64,000 bases of DNA from the NCBI GenBank assembly GCA_003216195.1, contig QCJF01000007.1, forward strand, positions 1 through 64,000, written 5' to 3'. Numbering within the stretch: position 1 is the first letter of the stretch; each line of letters begins with the position of its first letter. Position numbers and translations under genes: made by a program. The notes beneath the pieces are model-generated. The model ran no database searches and was not told where the DNA came from. It saw only the letters and a list, made by a program, of their open reading frames with translations. Positions 12,021-40,707 of the stretch are shown here, piece by piece. Origin of the DNA: Pelagibacteraceae bacterium AG-404-P08. Its GTDB lineage: Bacteria; Pseudomonadota; Alphaproteobacteria; HIMB59.

Positions 12021-12095
12021 GTTAGTTTCCTCCTAAATTTAAGTCTTATCGAATTGAAATTATATGACCATAATATAAAATTACTACTTCAAATT

Positions 12096-13497: not shown

Positions 13498-14775
13498 TTA
13501 CTGATATGCCTTGAGATTTAACTCAGCGCTATCAATACCTGCTTTTTGAACTGCATCCGGTACACGTAACCAATTCATCATTTTCATAATGAATGATAAA
13601 CCGTAACCAGGTACAAATCCTACTAAGAACATGACTATACATCCAACTAACTGTCCACCAAAACTTGTTGGAGGAATATCACCAGATGCTGGATAGCCTG
13701 ATGCAAATAATCCCATTGCAATCACACCCCATATACCGGCAACTCCGTGAACAGAGATAGCTCCTACTGGATCATCGATCTTGAAAACACTATGTAACCA
13801 ATTATTCGCAGGAATAATTATTACACCGCCAACAAAACCAAGAACAAAGGCTAATCCTGGATACCAAACATCAAGTCCCGACGCACAGGAGAATATACCT
13901 GCAAGTCCACCTGACATCATCCAGAATGGGTTACCTTTACTCATCCAAAATGCACCAATCATTCCACCGCCAAGACCCATTAGGGTATTGAATGCGAAAG
14001 AAGATAGTGTTGCTGGAGCACCGTAAATGTTTATCCAACCACCAAACTCTGCACCTGCCCAGATTAAACAACCACCGAGGAATCCGAAGAAACCAACAAT
14101 AATCATTAAAAGGCCTATAAATGAGAAACGAAGGTCGTGACCCTCAATCTCATTCGCAGAACCGTCAGCATTGTATTTACCAACTCTAGGTCCTAAGTTT
14201 AAGACAACTCCGAAAGCAAACCAACCTGCTACCATGTGAACAACACCAGCTGCTCCAACATCATGATATCCAAATTGTGTTACTAACCAACCATCAGGAT
14301 GCCAGCCCCATGAAGCGGCTAAGATCCAAGCTACAGATCCTAAAACAACAGCTAAGAAAGTAAATGAGCTAATTCTTATTCTCTCAAGAACAGATCCTGA
14401 AAAAATAGATGCTGTGGTACAAGCAAATAATGTAAATGCCGCCCAGAAAACACCTGTGGCTTGGTCACTCAACATAGGTCCCATAGATACATTCCATGGA
14501 GTACCATAACCATCAAGTGCTATTGGAGTAAATCCCTCTGGAAATGCAAGATAAATATACCAACCAAATAACCAGAAGGTTGGTATCATAAACGCGAACG
14601 CTAAAAGGTTTTTTGTAGCTGAAGAGACCGCGTTTTTAAAACGAGACGATCCTACTTCATACATCAAAAAACCTACGTGAATTGCAACCATTAACGCAGT
14701 ACACCACCAATAGTAAGCTTCCATACTGACGTTCGCTTGCATCATCACGTACGATTCAAGTTCTTCAAGTGTCAT
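13498..14775 (-). CDS. amt: Ammonium transporter Amt (possible methylammonium uptake)
   Basis: A 425-residue Amt/Mep/Rh channel with about eleven helices. Visible family blocks are GVVHMVAGWFAFGVVL (with the first pore histidine) and DPVGAISVHGVAGIWGVIAMG (with the second). It imports ammonium, and proteins of this family also pass methylammonium. It is divergent from gmaS across 233 bp, so uptake and first assimilation step of methylamine face each other. No signal-type N-terminal extension is evident. Confidence 0.95.
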   Translation of the reverse strand: MTLEELESYVMMQANVSMEAYYWWCTALMVAIHVGFLMYEVGSSRFKNAVSSATKNLLAFAFMIPTFWLFGWYIYLAFPEGFTPIALDGYGTPWNVSMGPMLSDQATGVFWAAFTLFACTTASIFSGSVLERIRISSFTFLAVVLGSVAWILAASWGWHPDGWLVTQFGYHDVGAAGVVHMVAGWFAFGVVLNLGPRVGKYNADGSANEIEGHDLRFSFIGLLMIIVGFFGFLGGCLIWAGAEFGGWINIYGAPATLSSFAFNTLMGLGGGMIGAFWMSKGNPFWMMSGGLAGIFSCASGLDVWYPGLAFVLGFVGGVIIIPANNWLHSVFKIDDPVGAISVHGVAGIWGVIAMGLFASGYPASGDIPPTSFGGQLVGCIVMFLVGFVPGYGLSFIMKMMNWLRVPDAVQKAGIDSAELNLKAYQ

Positions 14776-15008: not shown

Positions 15009-16316
15009 ATGGCAACTAACCTTCACCAATTTGCTAAAAAAAATGGTGTCAAATATTTTTTTGTAAGCTTTGTAGATTTATTTGGGGTGCTTAGATCAAA
15101 GCTTGTACCTGCTACAGCTATAGATGAAATTCAATCTGAAGGAGCTGGATTTGCAGGTTTTGCAACATGGCTTGATATGTCTCCAGCTGACTCTGATATG
15201 TTTGGTATGCCTGATGGTGATAGTGTTATCCAGCTTCCTTGGAATAAAGAAATAGCTTGGGTTGCCTCTGATTTGTATATGGATGGTAAACCAGTAGAAG
15301 CTTCACCAAGAATAGCCTTAAAAAGACAAATAGAAAAAGCAGCTAAAAAAAATCTTTATATGAAGTCAGGTGTTGAATGTGAATTCTTTTTGGTCAACGA
15401 AGACGGTACATCTTTATCAGATCAAAGGGATACGCAAGCAAAACCATGCTATGACTCCTCTGCTTTAATGAGAAGATATGATGTTATCACTGAGATATGT
15501 GACTCAATGATCGCACTAGGATGGAAACCTTACCAAAACGATCATGAAGATGCGAATGGGCAATTTGAAATGAACTGGGATTTCTCGGATTGTTTAGTAA
15601 CAGCAGATAGACATGCTTTTTTTAAATTCATGGTGAAATCTATAGCAGAAAAACATTCACTAAGGGCAACTTTCATGCCCAAACCTTTTACAAATTTAAC
15701 AGGTAATGGATGTCATTGTCATATTTCTATTTGGGATAAATCTGGCAAAAAAAATATGTTTTTAGATAAAAAAGATGAATTAGGTTTATCCAAAACTGGT
15801 TACAATTTCTTAGGTGGAATAATAGAAAGTGCGGACAAAATGGCTGCTGTTTTTAACCCAACTGTAAACTCCTATAAAAGAATTAACGGTAGTGTAACAA
15901 CATCAGGTGCAACATGGTCGCCAAGCTCGATTACTTGGGCAGGTAACAACAGGACACACATGGTAAGAGTTCCTGGAGCAGGAAGATTTGAATTAAGATT
16001 AATGGATGGAGCTACAAATCCTTATTTACTTCAAGCAGGTATTTTACTTTTAGGTTTGGACGGTTTAAATAATAAAAGAGACCCTGGAAAACGATTAGAT
16101 ATTAATATGTACACAGAGGGTCACAAGGCTGGGAAAGTAAAAAAATTGCCATTAAATCTTCTTGATGCAATACGTGATTTTGATAAATCAAAAATCATTA
16201 GAGCAGGTTTTGGTGATGATTTAGTCAATAGCTATGTAAAATTAAAAAATCAAGATTGGGGTACTTTTAATAAACACCTTTCTAGTTGGGAAAGAGAAAC
16301 AACTCTAGATTGTTAA
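15009..16316 (+). CDS. gmaS: Gamma-glutamylmethylamide synthetase GmaS
   Basis: A 435-residue glutamine-synthetase-family ligase that joins glutamate and monomethylamine with ATP, the first step of the N-methylglutamate pathway. The N-terminus and the blocks GAGFAGFATWLDMSPADSD, QNDHEDANGQFEMNWDF, GNGCHCHISIW and VRVPGAGRFELRLMDGATN match the GmaS/glnT type III group known from marine bacteria. All GS catalytic residues are present. The preceding GAGGAG site fixes the start. It faces amt and is followed 7 bp later by an unknown gene in the same direction. Confidence 0.88.
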   Translation: MATNLHQFAKKNGVKYFFVSFVDLFGVLRSKLVPATAIDEIQSEGAGFAGFATWLDMSPADSDMFGMPDGDSVIQLPWNKEIAWVASDLYMDGKPVEASPRIALKRQIEKAAKKNLYMKSGVECEFFLVNEDGTSLSDQRDTQAKPCYDSSALMRRYDVITEICDSMIALGWKPYQNDHEDANGQFEMNWDFSDCLVTADRHAFFKFMVKSIAEKHSLRATFMPKPFTNLTGNGCHCHISIWDKSGKKNMFLDKKDELGLSKTGYNFLGGIIESADKMAAVFNPTVNSYKRINGSVTTSGATWSPSSITWAGNNRTHMVRVPGAGRFELRLMDGATNPYLLQAGILLLGLDGLNNKRDPGKRLDINMYTEGHKAGKVKKLPLNLLDAIRDFDKSKIIRAGFGDDLVNSYVKLKNQDWGTFNKHLSSWERETTLDC

Positions 16317-16323
16317 ATTATTA

Positions 16324-16878
16324 ATGACACCTGAAGTTTTACAAGAAAAGTTTCTTGATTGGCAATGTCAATCTAGAATTCAGGCATTTAGAACACAAAA
16401 TGGTAGACCAAACTCATCTATGGCACCAATATTGCTTGATAAGAAAGGAAATGAACTTCTAAGAATTATTGTTGTAATTTCAGAAAATGATCCTGTAAAC
16501 ACGACAAAACTTTTTGAACACACATTTAAACGAACTTACGATCCAGCTGATCGATTTGATAAAATGAATAAATTTTTATCTTCTGAATATTTTATGGATA
16601 AAGATAAATTTTCAGACTCTTTATTTGCTACTTTTCCAAAAAACTCAAGTATCTCAAAAAAAGTAGTTAAAGACGGCGCATGTATCTTAGATTTTATTCA
16701 CCTTTCTACAAATTATAGATTGTCATGTTCTCCTTTTATTCTCGATAAAAATGAGGAACATTGGGAAAATATTTTTTGGCATAATAAAAATTTTAATCCT
16801 GGTTTGGGAAATGACATCGATGTTATAAAATTTATTCCAAACTGGAAAAAATCTAAATTAATAAGAATTAAAGATTAA
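16324..16878 (+). CDS. Unknown protein co-transcribed with gmaS
   Basis: A 184-residue soluble protein with no signal peptide or membrane helix. It has several Trp residues, a segment RIIVVISENDPVNTTKLFEHTFKRTYDPADRF in its middle that looks like a beta strand followed by a helix, and a C-terminal basic end. I do not recognise the family. It starts 7 bp after gmaS and is closed off by the shared hairpin at 16892, so it is probably made together with GmaS. Confidence 0.7.
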   Translation: MTPEVLQEKFLDWQCQSRIQAFRTQNGRPNSSMAPILLDKKGNELLRIIVVISENDPVNTTKLFEHTFKRTYDPADRFDKMNKFLSSEYFMDKDKFSDSLFATFPKNSSISKKVVKDGACILDFIHLSTNYRLSCSPFILDKNEEHWENIFWHNKNFNPGLGNDIDVIKFIPNWKKSKLIRIKD

Positions 16879-16925: not shown

Positions 16926-17402
16926 TTACTCAACTAACTTAAAGTTCTCACCCTTAGCGTATGTTCTTTTTAACTGTACCAAGGGATGATTAGGTGACAT
17001 TTGAAACTTAATTAAAAGTTCTCTTGCTAACATATCTCTATCTTGTTGGTTTTTTGGAAGTTTAATCTTCTTTGGCAAAGTGATCCAAGCGTTTGCATTT
17101 CTGTCAAACACAGCAGGGGTATCACCTTCAAAACCCATATGGATGTCCTCTAACCAATTTAAATCATCCCAACCCATAATTTCGATATATTGTTTAAGAA
17201 ATGGTGTTAAGTGCTTGTAATCAGGAATTAAGTTAACATCATAACGATAGCCAATATGCTGGCCAATCATTTTTTCTCTTGATGTTTTAATTTCCTTATC
17301 TTTTAATTTAGCTCCACCGACAACTTGATAACCTTTTGACTTAGTAGGTTTTTTTGATTTTGCAGAAGTTGATTTCTTTTTTGTAACTTTCTTTTTAACC
17401 AT
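16926..17402 (-). CDS. Unknown Lys-rich protein at the end of the mgs1 operon
   Basis: A 158-residue protein. Residues 1-25 are almost only Lys, Ser and Thr (MVKKKVTKKKSTSAKSKKPT), a likely disordered, nucleic-acid or membrane-surface binding tail. The rest has a compact look with YRYDVNLIPDYKHLTPFLKQYIEIMGWDDLNW and is rich in aromatic residues. It lies 9 bp after mgsC1. I do not recognise it. Conserved placement next to a synthase would suggest an accessory role, but that is inference. Confidence 0.65.
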   Translation of the reverse strand: MVKKKVTKKKSTSAKSKKPTKSKGYQVVGGAKLKDKEIKTSREKMIGQHIGYRYDVNLIPDYKHLTPFLKQYIEIMGWDDLNWLEDIHMGFEGDTPAVFDRNANAWITLPKKIKLPKNQQDRDMLARELLIKFQMSPNHPLVQLKRTYAKGENFKLVE

Positions 17403-17411
17403 AATACTCTC

Positions 17412-18746
17412 CTAAATTGAGTGGTAGTTATCTACACCTACTGTTAAATCTGTACCGGCTAATGGAACTTTCGCCATTGCTGATGATTCCATTGTCAATG
17501 CAGCTAGATCTTCTGGCTCAAGTGAGTGAATGTTTGTCTTACCACATGCTCTTGCTAGCATTTGGCACTCAAGAGTCATAGTGCTAAGTAAATTATAAAC
17601 TCTTTCTGCTGCCTCTGTTGGGTCTAATCTACTTCTAAGAACAGGATCCTGTGTGGCAACACCAACTGGACATCTACCAGTATGACAGTGATAGCAGTAA
17701 CCTGCCTCCACTCCCATTTCTTTTTCATAGTCAGCTTCTGGAATATCTTTATTACAGTTCAGTGCTACTAATCCAGCTGTGCCGATAGCAATAGCATCTG
17801 CGCCAAGGGCTAAGGCTTTAGCCATGTCAGCTCCATCTCTAATACCTCCAGCAAATACCAATGATATTTCACCAGTTTTACCTACATCGTCCAAAGCTCT
17901 TCTTGCTTCTCTAATTGCCCCAATACCAGGAATACCAGTATTGGCTGCTGCAATGTGTGGGCCAGCTGCTGTTGAACCTTCCATGGAGTCTAAAAATATA
18001 GAGTCTGGGTCACATTTTGCTGCCATTCTGACATCGTCGTAAACTCTTGATGCACCTAACTTCAATTGAATTGGCACTTGATTGTCAGTTAATTCTCTTA
18101 ATTCTTGAACCTTAAGAGCTAAATCGTCCGGTCCCATCCAGTCTGGGTGTCTAGCAGGAGACCTTTGATCAATACCAGCAGGTAGTGATCTCATCTCAGC
18201 TACTTGGTCAGTAACTTTCTGGCCCATTAAGTGACCACCCATTCCAACTTTTTGACCTTGGCCAATAAAAACCTCAATGGCGTCAGCTAATTGAGCATGG
18301 TGTGGGTTGAAACCATACCTGGATTGAATACATTGATAATACCATTTGTGAGAGTACCTTCTCTCATCAGGTATCATACCCCCTTCTCCAGAGCATGTTG
18401 CACTTCCAGCCATTGATGAACCTCTAGCTAAAGCAGTTTTTGCCTCATAAGAAAGAGCACCAAAACTCATACTTGTTATGTAAACAGGAATATCAAGTTT
18501 GATAGGATTTTTTGCTCTAGGACCTATAATTGTTTCTGTAAGACACTTCTCTCTGTAACCTTCAATAACAAATCTTGTTAATGTACCTGGTAAAAAAACT
18601 AAATCATCCCAGTGAGGAATTTTTTTCATTAACGCCATACCACGCATTCGATAACGACCAAGTTGTGATTTGATATGAATGTCGTCCATCACCTCGGGGG
18701 TAAAAATTGAGTTTTGTCCTAATAATTGTGTATTACGTTTTGCCAT
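17412..18746 (-). CDS. FMN-binding glutamate-synthase-like subunit, MgsC paralog 1 (cysteine cluster kept)
   Basis: A 444-residue protein matching the FMN/synthase domain of glutamate synthase: TSMSFGALSYEAKTALARG, LKLGASRVYDD, VFAGGIRDGADMAKALALGADAIAIGTA and the C-terminal LEPEDLAALTMES. Residues 351-359 read CYHCHTGRC, like the Fe-S ligand region of glutamate synthase, while the mgd-linked paralog at 24326 has none of these cysteines. It would join an alpha-keto acid with an amine-bound nitrogen, as in N-methylglutamate synthase. It overlaps mgsB1 by 1 bp. Substrate unknown. Confidence 0.85.
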   Translation of the reverse strand: MAKRNTQLLGQNSIFTPEVMDDIHIKSQLGRYRMRGMALMKKIPHWDDLVFLPGTLTRFVIEGYREKCLTETIIGPRAKNPIKLDIPVYITSMSFGALSYEAKTALARGSSMAGSATCSGEGGMIPDERRYSHKWYYQCIQSRYGFNPHHAQLADAIEVFIGQGQKVGMGGHLMGQKVTDQVAEMRSLPAGIDQRSPARHPDWMGPDDLALKVQELRELTDNQVPIQLKLGASRVYDDVRMAAKCDPDSIFLDSMEGSTAAGPHIAAANTGIPGIGAIREARRALDDVGKTGEISLVFAGGIRDGADMAKALALGADAIAIGTAGLVALNCNKDIPEADYEKEMGVEAGYCYHCHTGRCPVGVATQDPVLRSRLDPTEAAERVYNLLSTMTLECQMLARACGKTNIHSLEPEDLAALTMESSAMAKVPLAGTDLTVGVDNYHSI

Positions 18747-19582
18747 TAGCCTAATATTCCTTTCTTTTCTGCTGGCTCTAGGTTGTCATAATTCCAGAGC
18801 ATTCTTCCTGCAACGTATTTCTTAAATTTTGAAGCTGGGACCTTGCAATCAATCTCAGCATTTTTAATTTTTTGTTCTAGCCATCTAACCTCGTGTTCAT
18901 TCATTTCACCAGGTACGCAGTCTGTTCCAAGCGAATGAGGCTCTCCTCCTACAAAAATAATTCCATCATACATTGAGTCACCCATGTTTGCGTTTACATC
19001 ACCACAAACGATAATTCTTCCTCTTTGCATCATAAATCCAGTGTAAGCTCCAGCATTACCGCCAATAAGAATGGTGCCACCTTTCATATCAATTCCAGTT
19101 CTTGCACCTGCATCGCCTTTAACTATAAGGTCACCACCTCTAAGAGCAGCACCAAAACAAGATCCTGCATTGTTTTCAACAACAACTTTTCCTGACATCA
19201 TATTTTCTGCACATGACCAACCAACTCTTCCGTTAACTCTTACTGTTGGTCCATCGATACAACCGATACCAAAATAACCTAAGCTACCCTCAAAGATTAA
19301 GTTTAACTTATTTAGAATTCCCACACCAAGTGAATGTTTTGCACCAGGGTTTTTAATAACTATAGACCCATATCCCTTTCGAATTGCATCTCTAATTTTT
19401 TGATTCAATTCATGAGCATCAATGCCTTCACAATCAATGGAGGTTCTTTTATTAAAATCAACTTCGTGATTACCGTAGTAGGTATAATTTTCTTCTTCTG
19501 TTACTTCAAAATATAATTTTTGCGATCTACCTGATAAATTTTCATCATCAAAAGCAGTAGTTCTTTTTGTTATGCCTGCCAT
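18746..19582 (-). CDS. GXGXG-domain subunit, MgsB paralog 1
   Basis: A 278-residue protein dominated by the GXGXG beta-helix found at the C-terminus of glutamate synthase: turns such as GSLGYFGIGCIDG, GRVGWSCAENMMSGKVVVENNAGSCFGAALRGG and GGNAGAYTGFMMQRG. It is about 50 residues longer than the second copy (227). It acts as structural partner of the amidotransferase and FMN subunits. Its 5' end overlaps the amidotransferase gene by 13 bp. Confidence 0.87.
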   Translation of the reverse strand: MAGITKRTTAFDDENLSGRSQKLYFEVTEEENYTYYGNHEVDFNKRTSIDCEGIDAHELNQKIRDAIRKGYGSIVIKNPGAKHSLGVGILNKLNLIFEGSLGYFGIGCIDGPTVRVNGRVGWSCAENMMSGKVVVENNAGSCFGAALRGGDLIVKGDAGARTGIDMKGGTILIGGNAGAYTGFMMQRGRIIVCGDVNANMGDSMYDGIIFVGGEPHSLGTDCVPGEMNEHEVRWLEQKIKNAEIDCKVPASKFKKYVAGRMLWNYDNLEPAEKKGILG

Positions 19583-20511
19583 ACTTTTACCTCCGCTTCA
19601 TAAGGGTCATATGTTTTAATTTCGTGAGGAAATATATTCCTAATTGCAACTTCCTCTGATGCACATGCTACGATGTCTTTACTTTCGTAGATTACCATTG
19701 GCTTAGCGGCCATATGGTCTTTGGCCATTCCCAACTGATCCTTTGTTGCTACAACATATGTAAAAACTCCATCGAGCTCATCCAAGCTATCATGCATAGC
19801 TTTTTCTAGTTCAATGCCGTTAGCCATCTTATCAGCTATATAGACAGCAATTATTTCTGAGTCACAATTTGAATTAAACCTGTAACCTTTTCTTTCAAGT
19901 ACTCTTCGATTGCCCCAATAATTAGTCAATTGACCATTATGAACAACTGACACATCCTCAAAAGGAAAAGCCCAATAAGGGTGTGCGGATTTAATATCTA
20001 CATCAGACTCGGTAGCCATCCTTGTATGGCCAATACCGTGGGTGCCCATAAATTTATCAAGGCCATATTGATTGGATACAGTATTTGCATCGCCTAAGTC
20101 TTTAATGAGCTCAAGACCCTTACCAATAGATAAAATTTCAGTTTTTTCGACTGTTTCTATCTCAGTAGCCAAATCTGTGAGGTCACCTTTAAAATCAAAT
20201 ATATATCTGAAAGCGTATGGGGTGCTGGAGCTTTCTTTTGTTACTTTAGCACCATGTTTTTTTAAAATAGAGTCGACAGCATTTTTTCTATTTTTTAAAT
20301 CAGCAGGTGAGTCGACAGTTGCATTTACCTTTTCAGCCTCGTTTTCAGATATTTTAAATCTCATAACAAAGCCTTTTTTTAAAGGTGTTCCGTACATAGC
20401 ATATCCTGTTGAGTCAGGTCCCCTATGTTTAAGACCTTGTAACATAAGGCCCATTTGTTCACCGACGTTTACTGTCTTATTTTTATTTATAACTCCAGCT
20501 ATTCCACACAT
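19570..20511 (-). CDS. Class II glutamine amidotransferase subunit, MgsA paralog 1
   Basis: A 313-residue N-terminal nucleophile amidotransferase. Met1 is followed by Cys2 (MCGIAGVINK), the catalytic residue after Met removal. GTHGIGHTRMATESDVD and VVHNGQLTNYWGNRR are the glutaminase motifs. In the Mgs complex this subunit binds the gamma-glutamyl compound and frees the amine. The insertion around residues 55-110 also occurs in the second copy. Part of the operon 23368 to 16926. Confidence 0.87.
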   Translation of the reverse strand: MCGIAGVINKNKTVNVGEQMGLMLQGLKHRGPDSTGYAMYGTPLKKGFVMRFKISENEAEKVNATVDSPADLKNRKNAVDSILKKHGAKVTKESSSTPYAFRYIFDFKGDLTDLATEIETVEKTEILSIGKGLELIKDLGDANTVSNQYGLDKFMGTHGIGHTRMATESDVDIKSAHPYWAFPFEDVSVVHNGQLTNYWGNRRVLERKGYRFNSNCDSEIIAVYIADKMANGIELEKAMHDSLDELDGVFTYVVATKDQLGMAKDHMAAKPMVIYESKDIVACASEEVAIRNIFPHEIKTYDPYEAEVKVWQA

Positions 20512-20530
20512 ACTTTTCTCCTATCTTATC

Positions 20531-22000
20531 TTATGGTAAGCAATCTAGGTATTTATCGAGATCCCATTGAGTCGGAGTTGCTAAAAATTCTTCCCACTCG
20601 TCTCTTTTATACTCCATAAACACTTTCATCATGTCACCTGGTAGAGCATCTTGAATTACCTTGTCGGTTTCTAATCGATCTAATGCCTCACCAAGAGTCA
20701 TTGGTAATTTTTCAACTTGTTTACCAGCTTTCATTTGTTCATACATATTTTGTTGTTCTGGTTTGCCTGGATCCATTTTCTTTGAAATACCATGGTCAAA
20801 TGCTTTCAACAGACCGCTTCCCATTAAATATGGGTTGTGGGCTGAGTCAACTGATCGATATTCAAATCTACCAGGGGCAGATACCCTTAAACCACAGGTT
20901 CTGTTTTGATATCCCCAGTCCGCATAAACTGGAGCCCAAAAACCTGTATCCCAGAGTCTTCTATATGAATTCACAGTTGAGGAACCCAAGGCTGTTAAAG
21001 CAGGAAGGTGTTCCATGACACCACCAATTGCTTGAAGGCCTATTTTTCCAGGAATTCTTCTATCTTTTCCATCCGGCATAAAGACATTTGTACCTCCCCT
21101 ACGATGATGAAATACATTTTCCATACCTGGGATAGTCTTGTTACCACATGGTATTAACTCATCTTTTCCGCCCTTCCAGAGTGAAATATTTGTGTGACAC
21201 CCAGAAGCAGACACGCCAACAAATGGTTTACTCAGAAAACAAGCAATCAAATTAAATTCTCTTGCTACTTGAGCACAGATTTGTCTGTAAGTTGATAACC
21301 TGTCAGCGTTTCTAACAACATCGTCGTAGTTGAAATTTAGTTCTAATTGTCCAGGCGCATCCTCATGGTCACCTTGGATAATGTCCAAACCCATTGCACG
21401 TGAATACTCAATTACTTTCATGTAAACAGGTCTTAATGATTCAAATTGGTCAATGTGATAACAGTAGGGTTTAGAGAAACCTGATCCAGTAGGTGAACCA
21501 TCTTCGTTTTTTGTTAACCACATCATTTCAGGTTCTGTCCCTGCTCGTAATTCTAGTTTGTGTTTCTTTTTAAATTCTTCGTGGGCTCTTTTTAAGTTAC
21601 CTCTGCAATCAGATGTAAGATATCCACCAGGATCGTTCTCTTCTTCCCTGTTTCTAAAACAAGTACAAAAAACTCTAGCAATTCTTTTATCCCATGGAAT
21701 TTGAACAAATGTTTCAGGGTCAGGTATACCAACTAATTCGTGGGCCTCTGGTCCATAACCTATGTAATCACCATGTCTATTTGTAAATAGATTAGCAGTA
21801 GCTCCATAAACTAATTGGAAACCTCTATTTGCTACACTCTCCCAATGATCTGCAGGAACACCTTTACCTACAATTCGGCCTGTAACAGAAATAAATTGAT
21901 AATAAATATACTCAATTCCTAATTTATCAATTTTTTTTCTTACTTGTTTTATATAGTCTTGTCTCTTTTTATCCTTAACGTACGTTTCTAGCGCTGTCAT
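20531..22000 (-). CDS. Glutamine synthetase family ligase linked to MgsABC-1
   Basis: A 489-residue GS-superfamily protein, the longest of three in the window. Catalytic blocks are intact: LRAGTEPEMMWL, QGDHEDAPGQLELNFNYDD, SASGCHTNISLW, SSTVNSYRRLW and NRTCGLRVSAPGRFEYRSVD. It sits between an FAD oxidoreductase (22 bp upstream) and MgsA-1 (19 bp downstream), with AGGAGGAG just before its start. Because gmaS is present separately, this one probably ligates glutamate to some other amine. That is inference; a methylamine-specific isoenzyme is the alternative. Confidence 0.83.
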   Translation of the reverse strand: MTALETYVKDKKRQDYIKQVRKKIDKLGIEYIYYQFISVTGRIVGKGVPADHWESVANRGFQLVYGATANLFTNRHGDYIGYGPEAHELVGIPDPETFVQIPWDKRIARVFCTCFRNREEENDPGGYLTSDCRGNLKRAHEEFKKKHKLELRAGTEPEMMWLTKNEDGSPTGSGFSKPYCYHIDQFESLRPVYMKVIEYSRAMGLDIIQGDHEDAPGQLELNFNYDDVVRNADRLSTYRQICAQVAREFNLIACFLSKPFVGVSASGCHTNISLWKGGKDELIPCGNKTIPGMENVFHHRRGGTNVFMPDGKDRRIPGKIGLQAIGGVMEHLPALTALGSSTVNSYRRLWDTGFWAPVYADWGYQNRTCGLRVSAPGRFEYRSVDSAHNPYLMGSGLLKAFDHGISKKMDPGKPEQQNMYEQMKAGKQVEKLPMTLGEALDRLETDKVIQDALPGDMMKVFMEYKRDEWEEFLATPTQWDLDKYLDCLP

Positions 22001-22021
22001 TTTATTCCTCCTCCTTTTACA

Positions 22022-23368
22022 TCAACTCCAAGGGAACGGGCTCTTTGAAACCGGATGTAACTTCCCTTCTTCATAACGAGAAAATCTAAAAGGTTCTAGA
22101 ATTTCAGATTTCTCACCAAGTAACTCATTAGATACAAGGTCACCTAACCCAGCCATTTTGTATCCATGGTTTGCATCAGCTATAATATATACGTTTTCTC
22201 TGTATTGGTCGAATACGGGAAAACGATCTGGAGTAACACAGCCAATACCGCCAGCTTTTTGCTTCTTGTATTTTGCGTGACATCCATCAAATTGCTTTTG
22301 GCAAAAAGCCAAAGCAGAGGTCCATTTGTCCTCAAAAGAAGCCCTTGGTTGAAACTCATCTGAGTCATGACCATAAGGATCAAGACTTATATCGTTTACA
22401 GGTTTATTTATGTCATATGGAGAGGAACCGCCTTGTATACCATCTCTGTAGATATCGGGCTTATAGTAAAAACCCCACATAACATTTTCATGTATAACAT
22501 CTCCTGTTTTATTTGAGACAAGTGTAGCTTCTGTATCAACATGAATAACTGGGTACTCTGTTCCGTTTGCTGTTTTATAGCTTCTTGGATCAACTTCCAA
22601 CTCACCCTCTTCAAGTGCCATGTATGACCACATAGGTATGTCATCAGTAAATGAACCATCAGGTTTTTTTATTTTTACGGTGTTAGGTAATTCTAAGATT
22701 TCCCAGAATTTTCTTACCCATGGACCAGCAGCAACAACTAATTGAGTGCATTCAATTTTACCCTCTGATGTTTCTACAGCCGAAACTGCGCCACTACCAT
22801 TTGAAGAAATTAAATTATTTACAGTCACACCTTCTAAAACTTTTGCTCCAGCAGATACTGCTAACTTATGAAAGCCCTCTATAGCTCCTCTATTAGCTCC
22901 ATATCCTGTTTTCTTTTCGTGTAGAACTGAAGTGATACCTTGAGCTTGCCAATCTGGCAACATGTCTTTCATATACTTATCACAATCTGATGCTCCCTCG
23001 ATAAACTCGGAGTCAAATCCTATTTCTTTTTGCTGCTCATAAACTTCAGACATGCCCTCTTGCATTAGCTCGGAGTTGATCTGCATGTAACCGACTGGCT
23101 TGTAAGTTAAAGCCTCAGCATTCTCATTCCAAACATTTACAGAATGAGCCATTAATCTTCTCATTGCAGGTTGATAGTAGTTGTTCCTTACAATTCCACA
23201 TGCAACACCACTTGCCCCATTTGCAACTTTGGATTTTTCCAAAACGACTACAGAATTTTCTTTGAGTTGGCCCTTGCTAGATAATTTTTTACAAAGATGC
23301 CATGCGGTGCTAAGACCGTGAATTCCAGCCCCGATTATTAAATAGTCACATTTAGTAGGTAAGCTCAT
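22022..23368 (-). CDS. FAD-dependent amine oxidoreductase (sarcosine-oxidase-beta/DAO type)
   Basis: A 449-residue DAO-family flavoprotein with N-terminal dinucleotide fold YLIIGAGIHGLSTAWHL and C-terminal FAD segment NVYIIADANHGYKMAGLG. I place the start at ATG 23368 (MSLPTKCDYL), which has GGAGG 11 bases upstream; a start at 23425 would put the N-terminus inside the operator palindrome and add a Cys-rich leader unlike the family. It leads an operon with a GS-like ligase and MgsABC-1, so it may oxidise that pathway's N-substituted glutamate. It has no partner subunits like MgdBCD. Confidence 0.8.
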   Translation of the reverse strand: MSLPTKCDYLIIGAGIHGLSTAWHLCKKLSSKGQLKENSVVVLEKSKVANGASGVACGIVRNNYYQPAMRRLMAHSVNVWNENAEALTYKPVGYMQINSELMQEGMSEVYEQQKEIGFDSEFIEGASDCDKYMKDMLPDWQAQGITSVLHEKKTGYGANRGAIEGFHKLAVSAGAKVLEGVTVNNLISSNGSGAVSAVETSEGKIECTQLVVAAGPWVRKFWEILELPNTVKIKKPDGSFTDDIPMWSYMALEEGELEVDPRSYKTANGTEYPVIHVDTEATLVSNKTGDVIHENVMWGFYYKPDIYRDGIQGGSSPYDINKPVNDISLDPYGHDSDEFQPRASFEDKWTSALAFCQKQFDGCHAKYKKQKAGGIGCVTPDRFPVFDQYRENVYIIADANHGYKMAGLGDLVSNELLGEKSEILEPFRFSRYEEGKLHPVSKSPFPWS

Positions 23369-23485: not shown

Positions 23486-24256
23486 TCAATTGGCAACAAT
23501 TAGTCGAGAAATTTTAATTGAGGCAGATTGAAGGAGATCAACATAATTCATCATAGTTTTTGGGTTTAAAATATTTTTACTTCCTGATAAAGCGATTCCC
23601 GCGAATGATCTTTTATCTTTGTCTAAAATAGCAACTCCTATTCCATAAGAATTTTCAAAAGCTTCTCCATGATTAAGCGCATAACCGTTAGATCTAATTT
23701 TGCCAAGTTGTCTTTTTAAATCATTTAAATTTGTAATTGTATTATTTGTGTGAGGATAAAAATTATAACTTCTATAAATCGTTGCAATTTCATTTTCAGG
23801 TCTGTACGCAAGCATGACTTTTCCTAAAGCACAGCAATGAGCATCAAGTCTCATTCTAAAAGTTCTGATAGTTGCATCATCATTGTTGTCTGAAATTTTA
23901 TCGGAATGAACTATTTGAGAGCCTTCAAGCATTGCCAAATAAGTAATTAAATTCGTTTTACTAGAGACGTCTTTTAGAATTTCTTTAGAAGTCTCAGAAA
24001 TTGACTGAAGATAATCTGAGGTTTCTCCAAATTGAAAAGCTTTATGCCCCATAGTGTATGTATTCGTTCCAGTATTTTTATGGATATAACCAAGTTGAGA
24101 TAAGACAGACAATAGTCTAAATGTAGTTGTTCTAGATAAAACTGCTTTTCTAGAAATATTTGATGCCTTCAATGGGAAAATTGATTTTGATAAAATTTCA
24201 AGAATTTTAAAAGATTTTTCCAGAGACTTGTTTATATATTTTAAATCTTGTTGCAA
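23486..24256 (-). CDS. IclR-family transcriptional regulator
   Basis: A 256-residue IclR protein: an N-terminal winged helix-turn-helix (residues about 12-62, with ISRKAVLSRTTTFRLLSVLSQLGY) and a C-terminal effector domain ending in the family-typical AILDKDKRSFAGIALSGS. It lies between the two mgs operons, in the same direction as both. A perfect palindrome is 18 bp in front of its start, so it probably controls itself as well as the neighbouring methylamine operons. The ligand is unknown; an N-methylated compound or gamma-glutamyl amide is plausible. Confidence 0.9.
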   Translation of the reverse strand: MQQDLKYINKSLEKSFKILEILSKSIFPLKASNISRKAVLSRTTTFRLLSVLSQLGYIHKNTGTNTYTMGHKAFQFGETSDYLQSISETSKEILKDVSSKTNLITYLAMLEGSQIVHSDKISDNNDDATIRTFRMRLDAHCCALGKVMLAYRPENEIATIYRSYNFYPHTNNTITNLNDLKRQLGKIRSNGYALNHGEAFENSYGIGVAILDKDKRSFAGIALSGSKNILNPKTMMNYVDLLQSASIKISRLIVAN

Positions 24257-24325: not shown

Positions 24326-25645
24326 TTAAATCTTACCAGGCACCCAACCGGTTCCCGCTAAAGGAACCCTTGCCATTGCAGCAGCTTCAACTGTCAATGC
24401 ACATAGGTCCTCAGGTTCAAGATTATGTAAATCGTTTTTACCACATGCCCTAGCTATAGTTTGGGCTTCAAGAGTCATAACCTTGAGATAATTAGATAAT
24501 CTTTTTCCACCTTTTACTGGATCTAATCTTTTCATTAATTTTGGGTCTTGTGTATTTATACCTGATGGGTCTTTACCTTCATGCCAATCATCGAAGGCAC
24601 CAGCTGTTGTTCCAAGTTTTTTGTAATCACTCTCCCACTTTGGATCATTATCACCAAGTGCAATTAATGCTGATGAACCAATGGAAACAGCATCAGCACC
24701 CAATGCCATAGCTTTTGCAACATCTGCACCATTTCTAATTCCACCTGAAATAATTAACTGAACCTTCCTGTGCATATCTAAGTCTAATAAAGCATCTACT
24801 GCTGGCCTGATACACGCCAATGTTGGCTGACCTACGTTTTCGATAAATACCTCTTGTGTAGCCGCAGTACCTCCTTGCATGCCATCAAGCACCACCACAT
24901 CAGCTCCTGCTTTTACTGCAAGAGCAGTATCGTAGTAAGGCCTAGATCCTGCAATTTTTACAAAAATAGGAACTTTCCAACCTGTTATTTCCCTTAGTTC
25001 TAATATTTTAATTTCCAAATCATCTGGTCCAGTCCAATCTGGATGTCTACATGCTGATCTCTGATCAATTCCTTTTGGTAATGTTCTCATCTCAGCAACA
25101 CGATCACTTATCTTTTGACCGAGTAACATACCTCCACCACCAGGTTTGGCACCTTGACCTATCACAACTTCAATAGCATCTGCTTTTCTTAAATCCTCTG
25201 GATTCATTCCATACCTTGAGGGAAGTAATTGGTAAACCAAATGCTTTGATTGTCCTCTCTCCTCAGGAGTCATACCTCCATCGCCTGTTGTCGTTGAAGT
25301 CCCAGCAATACTAGCTCCTCTTCCAAGCGCTTCTTTTGCAGGTCCTGAGAGAGCTCCAAAACTCATTCCAGCAATTGTTATTGGAATATCTAATTCAAGC
25401 GGTTTTTTTGCAAATCTAGTTCCAAGAGTGACGTTAGTGCTGCACTTTTCTCTGTAACCCTCTAATGGGTATCTTGACATTGATGCGCCTAAAAAAAGAA
25501 GATCGTCAAAATGAGGTAATCTTTTTTTTGAACCACCTCCTCTAATGTCATAAATACCTGTTTCTGCAGCTCTTCGAATTTCAGAGTTTGTATAGTCATC
25601 AAAAGTCCAAGATTTTCTTGGTGTGGTTTTAAATTTTTCTGCCAT
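24326..25645 (-). CDS. mgsC: N-methylglutamate synthase subunit C (FMN-binding)
   Basis: A 439-residue FMN/synthase-domain protein: IAGMSFGALSGPAKEALGRG, VFVKIAGSRPYYD-like strand, IISGGIRNGADVAKAMALGADAVSIGS, then LEPEDLCALTVEAAAMARVPLAGTGW. At residues 351-360 it reads FDDWHEGKDP, with no Fe-S cysteines. It is collinear residue for residue with paralog 1 up to that point. It would transfer methylamine nitrogen to 2-oxoglutarate, making N-methylglutamate. It overlaps mgsB by 1 bp and is the last gene of the mgd-mgs operon. Confidence 0.88.
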   Translation of the reverse strand: MAEKFKTTPRKSWTFDDYTNSEIRRAAETGIYDIRGGGSKKRLPHFDDLLFLGASMSRYPLEGYREKCSTNVTLGTRFAKKPLELDIPITIAGMSFGALSGPAKEALGRGASIAGTSTTTGDGGMTPEERGQSKHLVYQLLPSRYGMNPEDLRKADAIEVVIGQGAKPGGGGMLLGQKISDRVAEMRTLPKGIDQRSACRHPDWTGPDDLEIKILELREITGWKVPIFVKIAGSRPYYDTALAVKAGADVVVLDGMQGGTAATQEVFIENVGQPTLACIRPAVDALLDLDMHRKVQLIISGGIRNGADVAKAMALGADAVSIGSSALIALGDNDPKWESDYKKLGTTAGAFDDWHEGKDPSGINTQDPKLMKRLDPVKGGKRLSNYLKVMTLEAQTIARACGKNDLHNLEPEDLCALTVEAAAMARVPLAGTGWVPGKI

Positions 25646-26328
25646 TAGTACTCCGATACATTATCTATATTAAAATTATAAAGTTTTCTTGCTGAACCAT
25701 ACATTTTGAAGTTTTTAATCTCACTTTCATTTATACTTGCTTTTTTTAAAAGAGATCTCAAAATATTTTGATCTTTTTTATTCATTTTTTTCTCTTCGCA
25801 GTCAGCACCAAGTGATTTCACTTTACCCTTAATAAAAATATTTGCTTCATAGATACTGTCTCCAAGAGCATCTCCGGCATCTCCACATATAACTAAATTA
25901 CCAGATTGAGCCATAAATGCAGACATATGGCCTACCGATCCTTTGACTATAATATCTATTCCTTTCATTGAAATCCCACAACGTGAACTAGTATCACCAT
26001 CAATAATCAAAGTTCCACCATGTGCTGTAGCACCGGCTGATTGGGATGCATTGCCCTTAACATGAACAGTTCCTGACATCATATTTTCAGCAACACCTGT
26101 GCCCACATTTCCATTTACAATGATATTTGCATTCATATTCATACCAGCACAATAGTATCCTGTGTGACCATCAATAGTGACTTCAATCTCGTCTTTTAGT
26201 CCAGCACAAATAGCGTGATTTCCATCTGGATTTGAAATTTTAAAAATCTTTTTGTTTGATTTTCTATCTATACTTTGAAGAGTTTCATTGACTTTTCTCA
26301 ATGACTCTTTTTTTAAATTTAAATTCAT
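25645..26328 (-). CDS. mgsB: N-methylglutamate synthase subunit B (GXGXG domain)
   Basis: A 227-residue GXGXG beta-helix protein with repeated turns such as GHTGYYCAGMNMNANIIVNGNVGTG and SVGHMSAFMAQSGNLVICGDAG. It holds together the amidotransferase and FMN subunits of N-methylglutamate synthase. Exactly 1 bp overlap with both mgsA and mgsC. Shorter at the N-terminus than paralog 1. Confidence 0.88.
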   Translation of the reverse strand: MNLNLKKESLRKVNETLQSIDRKSNKKIFKISNPDGNHAICAGLKDEIEVTIDGHTGYYCAGMNMNANIIVNGNVGTGVAENMMSGTVHVKGNASQSAGATAHGGTLIIDGDTSSRCGISMKGIDIIVKGSVGHMSAFMAQSGNLVICGDAGDALGDSIYEANIFIKGKVKSLGADCEEKKMNKKDQNILRSLLKKASINESEIKNFKMYGSARKLYNFNIDNVSEY

Positions 26329-27209
26329 TATTTCCCCCAGCTGTATACTTTTCCGGGCTCTGGTTCAAAAATTTTTGCTGAATTTACATTTGGTAAATGT
26401 GCCATTGCTTGAAACTCTGAGGCAATAGCAACATAATCCTTTGTTTCTGCAACAACTGCGGGTTTACAAGCTATCTCATCTCTAACAATTGCCATGCCAT
26501 TTTTGGTTCCAGAAATAAATGTGTAAAAACCATCGAGGTCCTTCAGTCCATCCAAAAGTGTTTCTTTAAGTGATTTTTTGTCAGATAATCCGTTTGAGAT
26601 ATAACCTGCAGCGACTTCTGTATCATTCATGGACTTTATTTCAATCCCTTTTTTCTGAAGCGATCTTCTTAAATTGTTATGATTTGATAAAGATCCGTTA
26701 TGAACAAGGCATTCATCCTCACCTGTGGAATATGGATGAGAGCCATCTGTCGTGATTGCACTTTCTGTTGCCATCCTTGTATGCCCGATAGCATGTGAGC
26801 CAGAAAACTTCTCTAGTGAAAAATTTTTAACAACATCCTTCGGATTTCCAACTTGTTTAAATATTTCTATGCAACTACCATATCCAACTAAACTTAATTC
26901 ATCATGATTTTTTAAAATTTCTATAAATTTTTTAGGCTTTATTGCTGTTTCAATTATTAAGTGATCTGAAATAGATTTTACTTTAATATCTTTTACTTGC
27001 TTAGATAATTTTTTTGAAATTTCTTTTACCTGATCAGTATTTGAGCAGACTGAATATTTATATTTCTTTTTTTTTTCAGATGAGTATATCGCAAAACCTG
27101 CACTATCAGGTCCACGAGTAGCCATACTATTCATCATTCCAGTAAGAAATTTACCTAATTGTGAATTGTATTTTTTATTTTTTAAATATATTCCAACTAT
27201 ACCACACAT
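26328..27209 (-). CDS. mgsA: N-methylglutamate synthase subunit A (class II amidotransferase)
   Basis: A 293-residue Ntn-type amidotransferase with Cys2 in MCGIVGIYLK, GSHAIGHTRMATESAIT and CLVHNGSLSNHNNLR. It would cleave gamma-glutamylmethylamide, releasing methylamine within the complex. A Lys-rich stretch around residues 50-55 and the divergent middle distinguish it from paralog 1. It lies 5 bp after mgdD. Confidence 0.88.
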   Translation of the reverse strand: MCGIVGIYLKNKKYNSQLGKFLTGMMNSMATRGPDSAGFAIYSSEKKKKYKYSVCSNTDQVKEISKKLSKQVKDIKVKSISDHLIIETAIKPKKFIEILKNHDELSLVGYGSCIEIFKQVGNPKDVVKNFSLEKFSGSHAIGHTRMATESAITTDGSHPYSTGEDECLVHNGSLSNHNNLRRSLQKKGIEIKSMNDTEVAAGYISNGLSDKKSLKETLLDGLKDLDGFYTFISGTKNGMAIVRDEIACKPAVVAETKDYVAIASEFQAMAHLPNVNSAKIFEPEPGKVYSWGK

Positions 27210-27214
27210 GAATA

Positions 27215-27811
27215 TTAAATAGCCTCATACCCATACTCTAATGATGAGTCAGTGATGCTATGGTAAAAAGAACCACCAAAGCTTCTTAATGCATAAAGGT
27301 TAAAACAAAACGGTTGGTCGTCTAAATAGTCGATCAGTATGTTAATTCCGTTATATGTAGTATTCACGCAATTATTTGGTTTAAACATATTTTCGTTAAA
27401 ATTTATTGGAGAACCTTTTTTTAAAACATTTTTTGCATATACGCCTGATATTTGTAATACAGCTCTTGACTGTGAAATATCTGTAATAGCAAAATCCTCA
27501 TCTCTAATCGATTTATAAATTTCGTCTTTCAAGTCAATTTTTTTTGAGATAATTAACCAGGTATCGGGACCGGACCACAATACTCTTGTTTCCTGGTTGT
27601 AAGAAACTTTTAGACTTTCTGTCGGTAAATTAAGTTGATTTATGGTAACTTTTTCAATCTCAATTGAGCTTTTTTTAAATTTAGCAATTTGGAAAATACT
27701 TAGGTCTTTAATTTCCGAGATTTTTAATAGGTTTTCTTTATTCTCATGGTCGCCAAACAGGCCGAGCTTATGATCAAAATGAAGTGGTGATAGATTTTGT
27801 GCTTGTTCCAT
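27215..27811 (-). CDS. mgdD: N-methylglutamate dehydrogenase subunit D (SoxG-like)
   Basis: A 198-residue protein related to the gamma subunit of heterotetrameric sarcosine oxidase. The C-terminal half shows TDISQSRAVLQISGVYAKNVLKKGSPINF, the SoxG pattern, and NLYALRSFGGSFYHSIT. It forms the tetrameric dehydrogenase with MgdABC. It overlaps mgdC by 1 bp. Confidence 0.87.
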   Translation of the reverse strand: MEQAQNLSPLHFDHKLGLFGDHENKENLLKISEIKDLSIFQIAKFKKSSIEIEKVTINQLNLPTESLKVSYNQETRVLWSGPDTWLIISKKIDLKDEIYKSIRDEDFAITDISQSRAVLQISGVYAKNVLKKGSPINFNENMFKPNNCVNTTYNGINILIDYLDDQPFCFNLYALRSFGGSFYHSITDSSLEYGYEAI

Positions 27812-30810: not shown

Positions 30811-31075
30811 TAAAGTCCTCGTTCATTTTACAAGTGTCAAAAATTTCATGTGTAGCGGTGTCTCTTGAGACTTTAAACCATTGTCTACATCCAGAAACAT
30901 GATGCCATAGTTCTGAGTGTTTTCCTCTTGGGTTATCTCTGTAGTAAACAAAATTATCCCAATCCTCGGTAGAAATTTCTTCTCCTAGTTGAGGTCTTTT
31001 TATTGTGGCATCCCCGCCATAAGAAAATTCATTTTGTGAGCGCTTGCCACAGTAAGGGCATTTTATTTCTAACAT
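30803..31075 (-). CDS. mgdB: N-methylglutamate dehydrogenase subunit B (SoxD-like delta)
   Basis: A 90-residue zinc-binding delta subunit. CPYCGKR at residues 6-12 and a later LWHHVSGCRQWFKVSRDT give the Cys and His ligands. Length and motif match SoxD. It bridges the alpha and beta subunits. It lies 3 bp after mgdA. Confidence 0.92.
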   Translation of the reverse strand: MLEIKCPYCGKRSQNEFSYGGDATIKRPQLGEEISTEDWDNFVYYRDNPRGKHSELWHHVSGCRQWFKVSRDTATHEIFDTCKMNEDFNV

Positions 31076-31078
31076 CTA

Positions 31079-32335
31079 TTAACCGATCCAAGGTTTAGGG
31101 CCTACACCCTTTTCATCTATAATTTTTCCAGTGTGGAATCTTTCAAGGTTAAAGTCTGAGTTAAGTTCATGTACTTGATCTTGTGCTATTGTATGAGCAA
31201 AAACAAATCCTGAGCTGGGAGTGGCTTTAAAGCCTCCGTAACACCAACCGCAATTAAGATATACGCCCTCAATATGAGTTTTATCGATTATTGGAGAACC
31301 ATCCATGGACATATCCATAATACCTCCCCAAGTTCGAAGCATTTTGAGTCTACTAAAGTTTGGAAAGACAGCCAATCCACCTGTTAAAACATGCTGTATC
31401 ATTGGCATATTTCCTCTTTGAGCATAGCTATTGTAACCATCTAAATCACCACCCATAACCATTTCACCTTTGTCAGATTGGCTACAATAAAAGTGACCTG
31501 CTCCGAATGTAACTACGTTGTGAAGTAAAGGTTTAACTGGTTCTGAGACGCAAGCTTGCAGAACATGTGCTTCAATTGGAAGTCTCATATTTAACATGTC
31601 TGCTAAAAGTGTAGTACTTCCGGCAACACACAATCCAACTTTTTTAGTTTTAATGTTTCCTCTTGATGTTTGAACACCTTCTATTTTTCCATTGTTAACA
31701 TCAAAACCTGTCACTTCACAATTTTGAATTATATCGACACCCATGGAGTCTGCCTGTCTCGCATATCCCCAAGCAACTGCATCATGTCTTGCAGTTCCTC
31801 CACGTGGTTGCATTAAACCACCATGAATGGGAAAACGACATGTTTCTGAAAAATCTGCAAATGGGATCATCTTTTTTAAATCATCCCTTCCAAGAAGAAT
31901 TGCATCAATACCATTTAATCTCATAGAGTTACCTCTTCTAGCGTAAGCATTCATTTGCGCATCAGAGTGAGCTAAGTTTATAATTCCTCTCGGTGAGTAC
32001 ATCACGTTGTAATTTAATTCTTGGCTAAGTGTTTCCCAAAGCTTCATGCCAAACTCATAAAAATGAGCGTTTGAGTCAAACATATAGTTAGATCTCAAGA
32101 TGGTAGTGTTTCTTCCAACATTACCTCCACCAATCCAACCCTTTTCAAGTATGGCAACGTTTGTGATGCCATGTTCTTTTGCAAGATAATAAGCTGTTGC
32201 AAGACCATGACCACCGCCACCTACAATTATGACATCGTATTCTTTTTTAGGCTCAGGGTCTTTCCAAGCTACCTCCCAATTTTCATGGTTGGTGAAAGCA
32301 TTTTTTACTAAACTAAATACTGAGTACTTTTGCAT
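31079..32335 (-). CDS. mgdA: N-methylglutamate dehydrogenase subunit A (SoxB-like beta)
   Basis: A 418-residue beta subunit with the DAO fold: YDVIIVGGGGHGLATAYYL near residue 33, RNTTILRSNYMFD, and the C-terminal YLNCGWCYGGFKATPSSG. It oxidises N-methylglutamate and passes electrons through the alpha subunit. First gene of the mgdABCD-mgsABC operon (32335 down to 24326), divergent from tmm with the IclR-type palindrome between. Confidence 0.9.
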   Translation of the reverse strand: MQKYSVFSLVKNAFTNHENWEVAWKDPEPKKEYDVIIVGGGGHGLATAYYLAKEHGITNVAILEKGWIGGGNVGRNTTILRSNYMFDSNAHFYEFGMKLWETLSQELNYNVMYSPRGIINLAHSDAQMNAYARRGNSMRLNGIDAILLGRDDLKKMIPFADFSETCRFPIHGGLMQPRGGTARHDAVAWGYARQADSMGVDIIQNCEVTGFDVNNGKIEGVQTSRGNIKTKKVGLCVAGSTTLLADMLNMRLPIEAHVLQACVSEPVKPLLHNVVTFGAGHFYCSQSDKGEMVMGGDLDGYNSYAQRGNMPMIQHVLTGGLAVFPNFSRLKMLRTWGGIMDMSMDGSPIIDKTHIEGVYLNCGWCYGGFKATPSSGFVFAHTIAQDQVHELNSDFNLERFHTGKIIDEKGVGPKPWIG

Positions 32336-33850: not shown

Positions 33851-34024
33851 ATGTCCAATAATACTCTTAATTTTATTGGATGGGTTTTATTTATTATTTC
33901 TGCCGTAGGCTTTATAATATCAAGTATTGGTAGTTTCTGGGCTATGTTTGGAAGTCTTTTTTTCTTTGTAGCTTGTTTTGTTTTTTTAATACCATTCTTT
34001 AGAAAAGAAAAAAATAAAGATTAA
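33851..34024 (+). CDS. Small two-helix membrane protein downstream of tmm
   Basis: A 57-residue ORF starting MSNNTLNFIGWVLFIIS, with two hydrophobic helices (about residues 8-27 and 31-50) and a basic end RKEKNKD. It begins 7 bp after the tmm stop, so it is probably on the same transcript, and its stop overlaps the convergent GcvT-like gene by 4 bp. I recognise no family. Confidence 0.55.
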   Translation: MSNNTLNFIGWVLFIISAVGFIISSIGSFWAMFGSLFFFVACFVFLIPFFRKEKNKD

Positions 34025-40640: not shown

Positions 40641-40666
40641 AAATTAATCTTTCCTAAAATAAAATA

Positions 40667-40694
40667 AATTCCCCCCTCAAAAGAGGGAGGAATT
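40667..40694 (-). terminator. Intercistronic hairpin between tmoX and tmoW
   Basis: On the transcript, AATTCC pairs with GGAATT and, after one mismatch, CCCTC pairs with GAGGG around a UUUU loop: an 11-bp stem with one bulge-type mismatch. It lies 14 bp after the tmoX stop and 27 bp before the tmoW start. Such a hairpin commonly lets the binding protein be made in excess over the membrane parts. Confidence 0.65.
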
Positions 40695-40707
40695 CAAATT
40701 AGAAATA

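Follow-up and report, generated by a model that had tools for sequence, protein, structure and literature searches.

We analyzed a 64,000-nucleotide stretch of DNA (hereafter the window; positions 1 to 64,000 of contig QCJF01000007.1) from Pelagibacteraceae bacterium AG-404-P08, whose 1.24-Mb genome is 82% complete and whose kin are marine Alphaproteobacteria that have not been cultured and are represented by single-cell and metagenome-assembled genomes. Six open reading frames (ORFs), all on the minus strand, follow one another in the transcription order FAD467, GS489, GlxB, GlxC, GlxD and Lys158. The intergenic spacings from FAD467 to Lys158 are 21, 19, –13, –1 and 9 bases. Given that neighboring ORFs are at most 21 bases apart or overlap, the six genes are taken as one operon, and comparison of genomes suggests that its amine is most likely dimethylamine (DMA). 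The members of the operon are as follows.

22022..23368, minus strand: FAD467, a single-chain flavin adenine dinucleotide (FAD) amine/amino-acid oxidoreductase of the DAO family (Pfam DAO, AlphaFold model); proposed N,N-dimethylglutamate demethylase
20531..22000, minus strand: GS489, a ligase of the glutamine synthetase (GS) superfamily, 489 aa; proposed gamma-glutamyl-dimethylamide synthetase, from its clade and pocket residues
19570..20511, minus strand: GlxB, a paralogue of MgsA with a class II glutamine amidotransferase domain and the N-terminus MCGI
18746..19582, minus strand: GlxC, a GXGXG domain protein, MgsB paralogue
17412..18746, minus strand: GlxD, a paralogue of MgsC with a flavin mononucleotide (FMN) glutamate-synthase domain and the Cys residues of a putative Fe-S cluster
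16926..17402, minus strand: Lys158, a small protein outside known families, with a Lys-rich tail and a conserved core of about 110 aa

The Pfam matches on these proteins are DAO, Gln-synt_C, GATase_6/7, GXGXG and Glu_synthase, with no match on the sixth. For FAD467 a longer ORF opens at 23425, but the aligned relatives start from the Met at 23368. A six-gene operon with this gene list had been predicted by the first-pass annotation, with which the ORFs, strands, spacings and Pfam matches agree.

The ligase GS489 scored 300.4 bits against TIGR03105 (type III GS/GmaS), below the curated cut-off of 469.6, and shares 29% identity with the GmaS of the window. Operon-type GS489 (32 rows, support 96/91) and GmaS together with RhGmaS (11 rows, 100/99) form two separate groups in a tree built on 62 rows; there are long branches nearby, and we draw no conclusion from the branching order among GmaS, GS489 and the remaining GS types. 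The amine-pocket and catalytic residues of RhGmaS, in which a Trp stands for the catalytic Glu of GS, are given in the available passages of PMC7948447. Sequence alignment revealed that K30', Y147, Q175, D177, E179, E186, N188, W300 and R312 of RhGmaS are kept in all operon-type GS489 rows, and that the Asp50', flap Glu and His (RhGmaS 177) of the ammonia-type GS are replaced by V, W and D in GS489. Near the pocket, two changes constant in GS489, Ala48' to Val and Tyr174 to Ile, would suit a bulkier and more hydrophobic amine. Judged from its sequence, GS489 is by descent neither an ammonia-GS nor a GmaS, yet it has a GmaS-like amine pocket. The rhizobial GlnT is likewise a GS-superfamily ligase; the plasmid-borne GlnT is annotated as type III and is about 31% identical to GS489.

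Within the window, GlxB, GlxC and GlxD are 32%, 37% and 50% identical to MgsA, MgsB and MgsC, respectively. GlxD shares 50%–55% identity with MgsC, against 69%–100% among the rows taken as MgsC, and both are encoded in the window genome. By these comparisons GlxBCD are not orthologous to MgsABC. The N-terminal Cys2 of the class II amidotransferase is present in GlxB in 102 of 102 rows, and Cys331, Cys354 and Cys359 of GlxD in 96 of 96 aligned rows. On visual inspection, these three residues align with the cysteines of the Fe-S cluster in glutamate synthase, and we take their positions to be Fe-S cluster ligands. The MgsC of the window is devoid of them; however, 3 of 23 MgsC rows (L129, L148 and L172) carry them, and the cysteines were rejected as a clean marker of GlxD versus MgsC for this reason. 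The redox cofactor of N-methylglutamate synthase is described as unknown in PMC6237917. As a separate observation, the window MgsC (24326–25645) shares 91% identity with its counterparts in two genomes of SAR11 or its near kin but only 75% with the MgsC of the sister genome G069, a copy that keeps the Fe-S cysteines; the window copy was likely replaced by transfer.

The AlphaFold model of FAD467 has a predicted local distance difference test score (pLDDT) of 91.2. Its nearest folds are the sarcosine oxidase beta subunit and monomeric sarcosine oxidase and, lower down, dimethylglycine dehydrogenase. Identity is 14%–21% across the top 50 fold matches. The list extends to proline dehydrogenase, glycine oxidase and L-amino acid deaminase, and the fold alone therefore leaves the reaction unsettled. 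The Pfam scan of FAD467 yielded only DAO and a weak NAD_binding_8 match, without the folate-binding GCV_T domain. FAD467 is accordingly modeled as a DAO-family protein with a sarcosine oxidase-type fold, which shares with the dimethylglycine dehydrogenase/sarcosine oxidase family the predicted fold and a presumed N-methyl amino-acid substrate, but differs from it in its low identity and in the GCV_T domain not found. Given that this family demethylates N-methylated glycine, methylated glutamate would be a natural guess for the substrate of FAD467.

The last gene product, Lys158, had been described from the sequence as an unfamiliar Lys-rich protein. It indeed belongs to no known family, but the Lys-rich part is confined to its N-terminal tail. 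The core, about 110 residues long, is 63%–100% identical to the window copy in the 32 other aligned members and has 49 invariant positions (n = 33). The window copy gave no match in Pfam or NCBIfam, and the members gave three weak NCBIfam matches, each kind in 1–2 of 33. Its model (pLDDT 76.5) had no fold match in PDB, the best PDB profile match (E = 0.012) was discarded as looking like chance, and a search of 72,556 plasmids gave no match. Lys158 may be a putative subunit of GlxBCD.

Among 80 loci from named genomes, 69 have the same six-gene order and strand, and the remaining 11 run off the end of the stretch; the arrangement is not due to chance. The order is kept in SAR11 and in other Alphaproteobacteria. 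Thirty-two stretches from other genomes divide into 26 of the operon type and 6 of a GS489 paralogue type. Lys158 is present in 25 of the 26 operon-type stretches (in the exception the contig ends within glxD), and FAD467 lies in the same stretch in 20. The paralogues of the other six stretches are 53%–64% identical to GS489 and occur with another GS-like gene but without glxBC. GS489 paralogues accompanied by another GS-like gene were seen in L161–L166 and L009–L013, and plasmid relatives of GS489 adjoin P450, aldehyde dehydrogenase or gamma-glutamyl hydrolase genes. Plasmid pGKT2 of Gordonia sp. KTR9 has P450 genes on both sides of the homologous stretch, which itself overlaps a gene annotated as FAD-dependent oxidoreductase. 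In a class sample of 385 genomes, 39 have GS489, of which 37 are of the operon type; G304 and G410, with a GS489 paralogue only, are excluded from the 37, and G231, with a partial GS489 match and no GlxD found, is included. A phylum-wide sample of 289 genomes, of which an uncounted share belongs to other classes and which covers the spread elsewhere weakly, gave GS489 in 2, both of this class. A Pelagibacterales sample comprises 158 genomes, each at least 85% complete.

The genes around the operon bear on its amine. On the minus strand the order is mgdABCD, mgsABC, iclR, FAD467, GS489, glxB, glxC, glxD and Lys158; a complete MgsABC–MgdABCD set next door (24326–32335) and a separate gmaS (15009–16316), both named in the first-pass annotation, are indeed present. 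The neighboring features are as follows.

13498..14775, minus strand: presumably an Amt-type ammonium/methylammonium transporter; frequently adjoins the operon
15009..16316, plus strand: gmaS, gamma-glutamylmethylamide synthetase (TIGR03105, 646.1 bits; PDB 7cql, E = 4e-184)
16324..16878, plus strand: u184, a conserved protein convergent with the operon; homologues of 22%–41% identity beside the operon in other families
23486..24256, minus strand: IclR-type regulator (Pfam), directly upstream of the operon
24326..27209, minus strand: mgsCBA, N-methylglutamate synthase genes, the comparison set
27215..32335, minus strand: mgdDCBA, N-methylglutamate dehydrogenase genes; proposed step after FAD467
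32509..33843, plus strand: what we take to be a Tmm-like trimethylamine monooxygenase (Pfam FMO-like)
34021..35190, minus strand: GcvT-type protein resembling DmmD (27% identity to a DmmD-type gene)
35207..37558, minus strand: presumed Tdm-like trimethylamine N-oxide (TMAO) demethylase, the DMA source (from the neighbors and the domains DUF1989, GCV_T and GCV_T_C, which we take to be the Tdm make-up)
37562..41649, minus strand: presumed TmoV/W/X-like TMAO ABC transporter; adjoins Tdm in SAR11 loci as well

In the class sample, a Tdm homologue was found in 34 genomes and PF11927, the haem N-demethylase family, in 50. GS489 occurs in 26 of 34 Tdm-positive and 13 of 351 Tdm-negative genomes (odds ratio 84.5, p = 6e-24); with the two paralogue-only genomes removed, the figures are 26 of 34 and 11 of 351 (p = 7e-25). 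The Pelagibacterales sample showed 86 genomes with both genes, 4 and 4 with one only, and 64 with neither (p = 4e-34). Seven of the 8 discordant genomes, all but G451, have a contig that breaks off at the operon or at Tdm. Over 112 loci, Tdm lies on the strand of GS489 in 61, on the opposite strand in 2 and outside the locus in 43, with neither in 6. Furthermore, 55 of the 60 loci holding both tdm and FAD467 have them on one strand at a distance of 433–472 bases. Among 63 loci of SAR11 and its near kin (L079–L141), Tdm is present in 57; the other six stretches include fewer than 800 bases ahead of the operon. A small ORF lies between tdm and FAD467 in 8 of 8 inspected loci (L079–L142; 116 aa in seven, 101 aa in one) and by eye is perhaps a MarR-like regulator; a gap in this region of L086 is only 8 bases.

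The metabolic gap that we propose for the operon, disposal of DMA after Tdm, is the one assigned to DmmDABC, a haem-dependent oxidative N-demethylase with reductase subunits. The proteins are unrelated, and the operon would instead use glutamate-conjugate chemistry. No Tdm-positive genome of the 34 combines a DmmDABC-type cluster with GS489: dmmABC-type clusters occur in four (G198, G290, G321 and G348), all without GS489, i.e., in 0 of 26 GS489-positive and 4 of 8 GS489-negative genomes (p = 1.5e-3). These clusters were checked by Pfam in G290 and G348, for the alpha subunit only in G321, and by similarity in G198; a dmmD match is present in three and missing from the stretch of G321. Not every PF11927 match could be equated with Dmm, given that G061 (one of five strong matches among Tdm-positive genomes) and the HIMB59 match have no DmmB/C in the stretch; an exclusion value of 2e-4 that counted G061 as Dmm was dropped on this ground. 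A search of 17 genomes from SAR11 and its near kin gave no PF11927 match. Two further Tdm-positive genomes without GS489 have truncated contigs: G383 retains glxD–Lys158–u184 at a contig edge, and in G297, where GmaS and MgsC are absent too, the contig ends in tdm. The window gave no match to DmmA/B/C-type queries, and a lone protein of 57 bits, with no reductase partner next to it, is the only PF11927 match of its genome. A PF11927 match was found in all four same-genus genomes of the class sample; that of G000 (L174, 6507–7247, contig C1; 57 bits) lies beside a permease-like gene, with no reductase partners alongside. The suggestion in the first-pass annotation of an amine other than monomethylamine (MMA) is supported, and the co-occurrence with Tdm and the exclusion of dmmABC narrow it, most likely, to DMA.

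Among the 37 operon-type genomes, MgsC (at least 69% identity) is present in 17, the window genome included, and GmaS in 28. Eight have neither at the thresholds used, three of them at least 95% complete, and the module would therefore stand independent of the MMA enzymes. By these sequence comparisons the operon does not simply duplicate those enzymes, nor does it depend on them. In agreement with the first-pass annotation, it reads as a separate gamma-glutamylation-type module and not as a copy of MgsABC/GmaS, in view of the identities of 29%–50%, the ligase clade of its own and the GmaS-like pocket; no tight clustering with MMA-specific MgsABC/GmaS was observed.

These comparisons enable us to propose a putative model. 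On balance, the operon is probably a module for DMA assimilation and demethylation that follows the logic of the N-methylglutamate pathway one methyl group earlier. The likeness to that pathway lies in the GS-type ligase and its pocket, the class II amidotransferase with GXGXG and FMN synthase proteins, the flavin demethylase and the layout. The differences are the low identities, the separate ligase clade below the TIGR03105 cut-off, the added single-chain FAD enzyme and new small protein, and a distribution that tracks Tdm and excludes dmmABC. Initially, Tdm converts TMAO to DMA, which is a known step. GS489 would then join DMA to glutamate with ATP, yielding gamma-glutamyl-dimethylamide, and the GlxB domain would hydrolyze the amide. 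At the FMN site of GlxD the released amine would be placed onto 2-oxoglutarate, or exchanged on glutamate, perhaps assisted by Lys158, to form N,N-dimethylglutamate. Afterwards, FAD467 would remove one methyl group to give N-methylglutamate, as dimethylglycine dehydrogenase does on dimethylglycine. Finally, MgdABCD would oxidize N-methylglutamate to glutamate. In this model the assignment of DMA is drawn from genome comparison, the intermediates from analogy, and the order of the steps is inferred. FAD467 had originally been placed in the role of Mgd itself, which is less well supported: MgdA-like genes are present in 37 of 37 operon-type genomes, and in G451 (L184) FAD467 lies directly upstream of mgdABC, divergent from the adjoining tdm, with no GS489 in the genome and no GlxBCD in the stretch, where alone GlxBCD was sought. 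FAD467 therefore more likely acts just before Mgd. More tentatively, and at somewhat less than an even chance, the whole could represent an undescribed N,N-dimethylglutamate pathway that bypasses free MMA and supplies the step for DMA that is missing in SAR11, HIMB59 and other marine Alphaproteobacteria.

Several points weigh against this model. GS489 changes Gly231 of the glutamate site of RhGmaS to Ala and His237 of the ATP site to Asn, so that glutamate is only a putative acid partner. Enzymes of this class are not known to carry out reductive amination with a secondary amine, and no role was found for Lys158. The p values for co-occurrence of GS489 and Tdm ignore the phylogenetic kinship of the genomes. 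Tdm is missing at threshold from 11 of the 37 operon-type genomes, and the Tdm-positive G061 and G373, with the lowest Tdm identities (44%–45% to that of the window), have neither the operon nor any dmm cluster. A single, weakly matching haem N-demethylase homologue (PF11927, 51–59 bits) is present in HIMB59-type genomes and might itself be a DMA enzyme; G000, G004 and G069 combine it with GS489 and Tdm. MgdA-like genes also occur in 2 of 4 operon-less genomes in the same search, making the co-occurrence with MgdA a weak prediction. SAR11 and its near kin are represented by 17 genomes, of which 14 carry GlxD without MgsC and 16 have GmaS at threshold; 13 of those 14 have GmaS, and GlxBCD may therefore serve MMA there as well.

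This last pattern, found in 13 of the 17 genomes, is also what a second MMA route would produce, with GS489, GlxBCD and FAD467 as alternatives of GmaS, N-methylglutamate synthase and N-methylglutamate dehydrogenase, respectively. The enzyme classes are identical to those of the MMA pathway, the pocket of GS489 is GmaS-like, and such a role has been put forward for SAR11: as far as the available text of PMC3160333 (2011) goes, SAR11_1313–1316 were named glxBCD-glnT and given N-methylglutamate synthase and gamma-glutamylmethylamide synthetase roles in a putative methylamine pathway. That locus is almost certainly the same operon, since the SAR11 ligases are 74%–79% identical and the order is equal; for strain HTCC1062 this is taken from the published gene order. 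We nevertheless regard a second MMA route as unlikely, because it would be redundant where MgsC (17 of 37) and GmaS (28 of 37) are present, including in the window, and would leave the exclusion with dmmABC unexplained.

The occurrence of GmaS without MgsC also fits a variant of the DMA module, in which GlxBCD serves the products of both GmaS and GS489, or FAD467 removes both methyl groups and makes MgdABCD dispensable. Single-chain FAD enzymes with a sarcosine oxidase-type fold act on several N-methyl amino acids. The MgdA-like genes in all 37 genomes argue, if weakly, against this variant, and FAD467 beside mgdABC in G451 suggests a division of labor; we consider it rather improbable. An amine other than a methylamine, such as a short alkylamine, ethanolamine or a fragment of a nitrogenous osmolyte, would agree with the 11 genomes without Tdm and with the diverse neighbors of the GS489 relatives lacking GlxBC, which imply that the wider family may handle varied amines; the close coupling of the operon to Tdm makes it a doubtful candidate here. 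Plain ammonia assimilation of the glutamine synthetase/glutamate synthase type, to which the frequently adjoining amt and the Fe-S cysteines of GlxD might point, is barely credible, given that GS489 is without the Asp that binds ammonia, the flap Glu and the His, all three of which are carried by another gene of the genome, L001.

The proposed DMA module would address an open question in the literature, the handling of DMA by SAR11, to which the operon is a predicted candidate answer. In the accessible sections of PMC5520151, all Pelagibacterales are reported to be without dmmDABC, and SAR11 with Tmm, Tdm and GmaS to face a bottleneck, such that DMA may accumulate and reach the air and marine aerosols. 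According to the consulted part of PMC8918994, HTCC1062 grows with TMAO as sole nitrogen source, and an isoenzyme of unknown identity was suggested for DMA. The module follows the DMA-making Tdm and stands where dmmDABC is absent, and therefore ties these observations together. If it handles DMA, the bottleneck may not exist in SAR11, counts of dmmDABC genes would undercount the users of DMA, and growth of HTCC1062 on TMAO would gain a genetic basis. Among the open-access papers listed, none was seen to describe the handling of DMA by way of glutamate, whether as dimethylglutamate or glutamyl-dimethylamide; papers matching these two names dealt, judging by title and opening of the abstract, with other subjects. 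The text of the AEGEAN-169 paper contains none of six methylamine or GS terms. Contrary to what had been anticipated, the operon is not entirely undescribed, given the SAR11 version noted in 2011. Relative to the available portion of that report, the FAD gene, the small protein, the linkage to Tdm and the DMA role are new here. The study also adds a new small protein family (Lys158) and a distinct ligase clade (GS489), and suggests, in a form open to testing, new functions for genes now labeled glutamine synthetase or glutamate synthase.

Some minor features accompany these genes. The convergent u184 recurs beside the operon in many stretches, and its sole Pfam match is weak and at chance level. 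In one SAR11 genome the gmaS match is split in two pieces (L100, 17123–18446), perhaps by a frameshift. The search of the window genome returned seven GS-superfamily genes. Within the window, another GS-like gene (465 aa, without the Asp177 of GmaS) lies at 9606–13082 beside class I amidotransferase-like and alpha/beta hydrolase genes, a cluster that possibly represents a separate gamma-glutamylation route.

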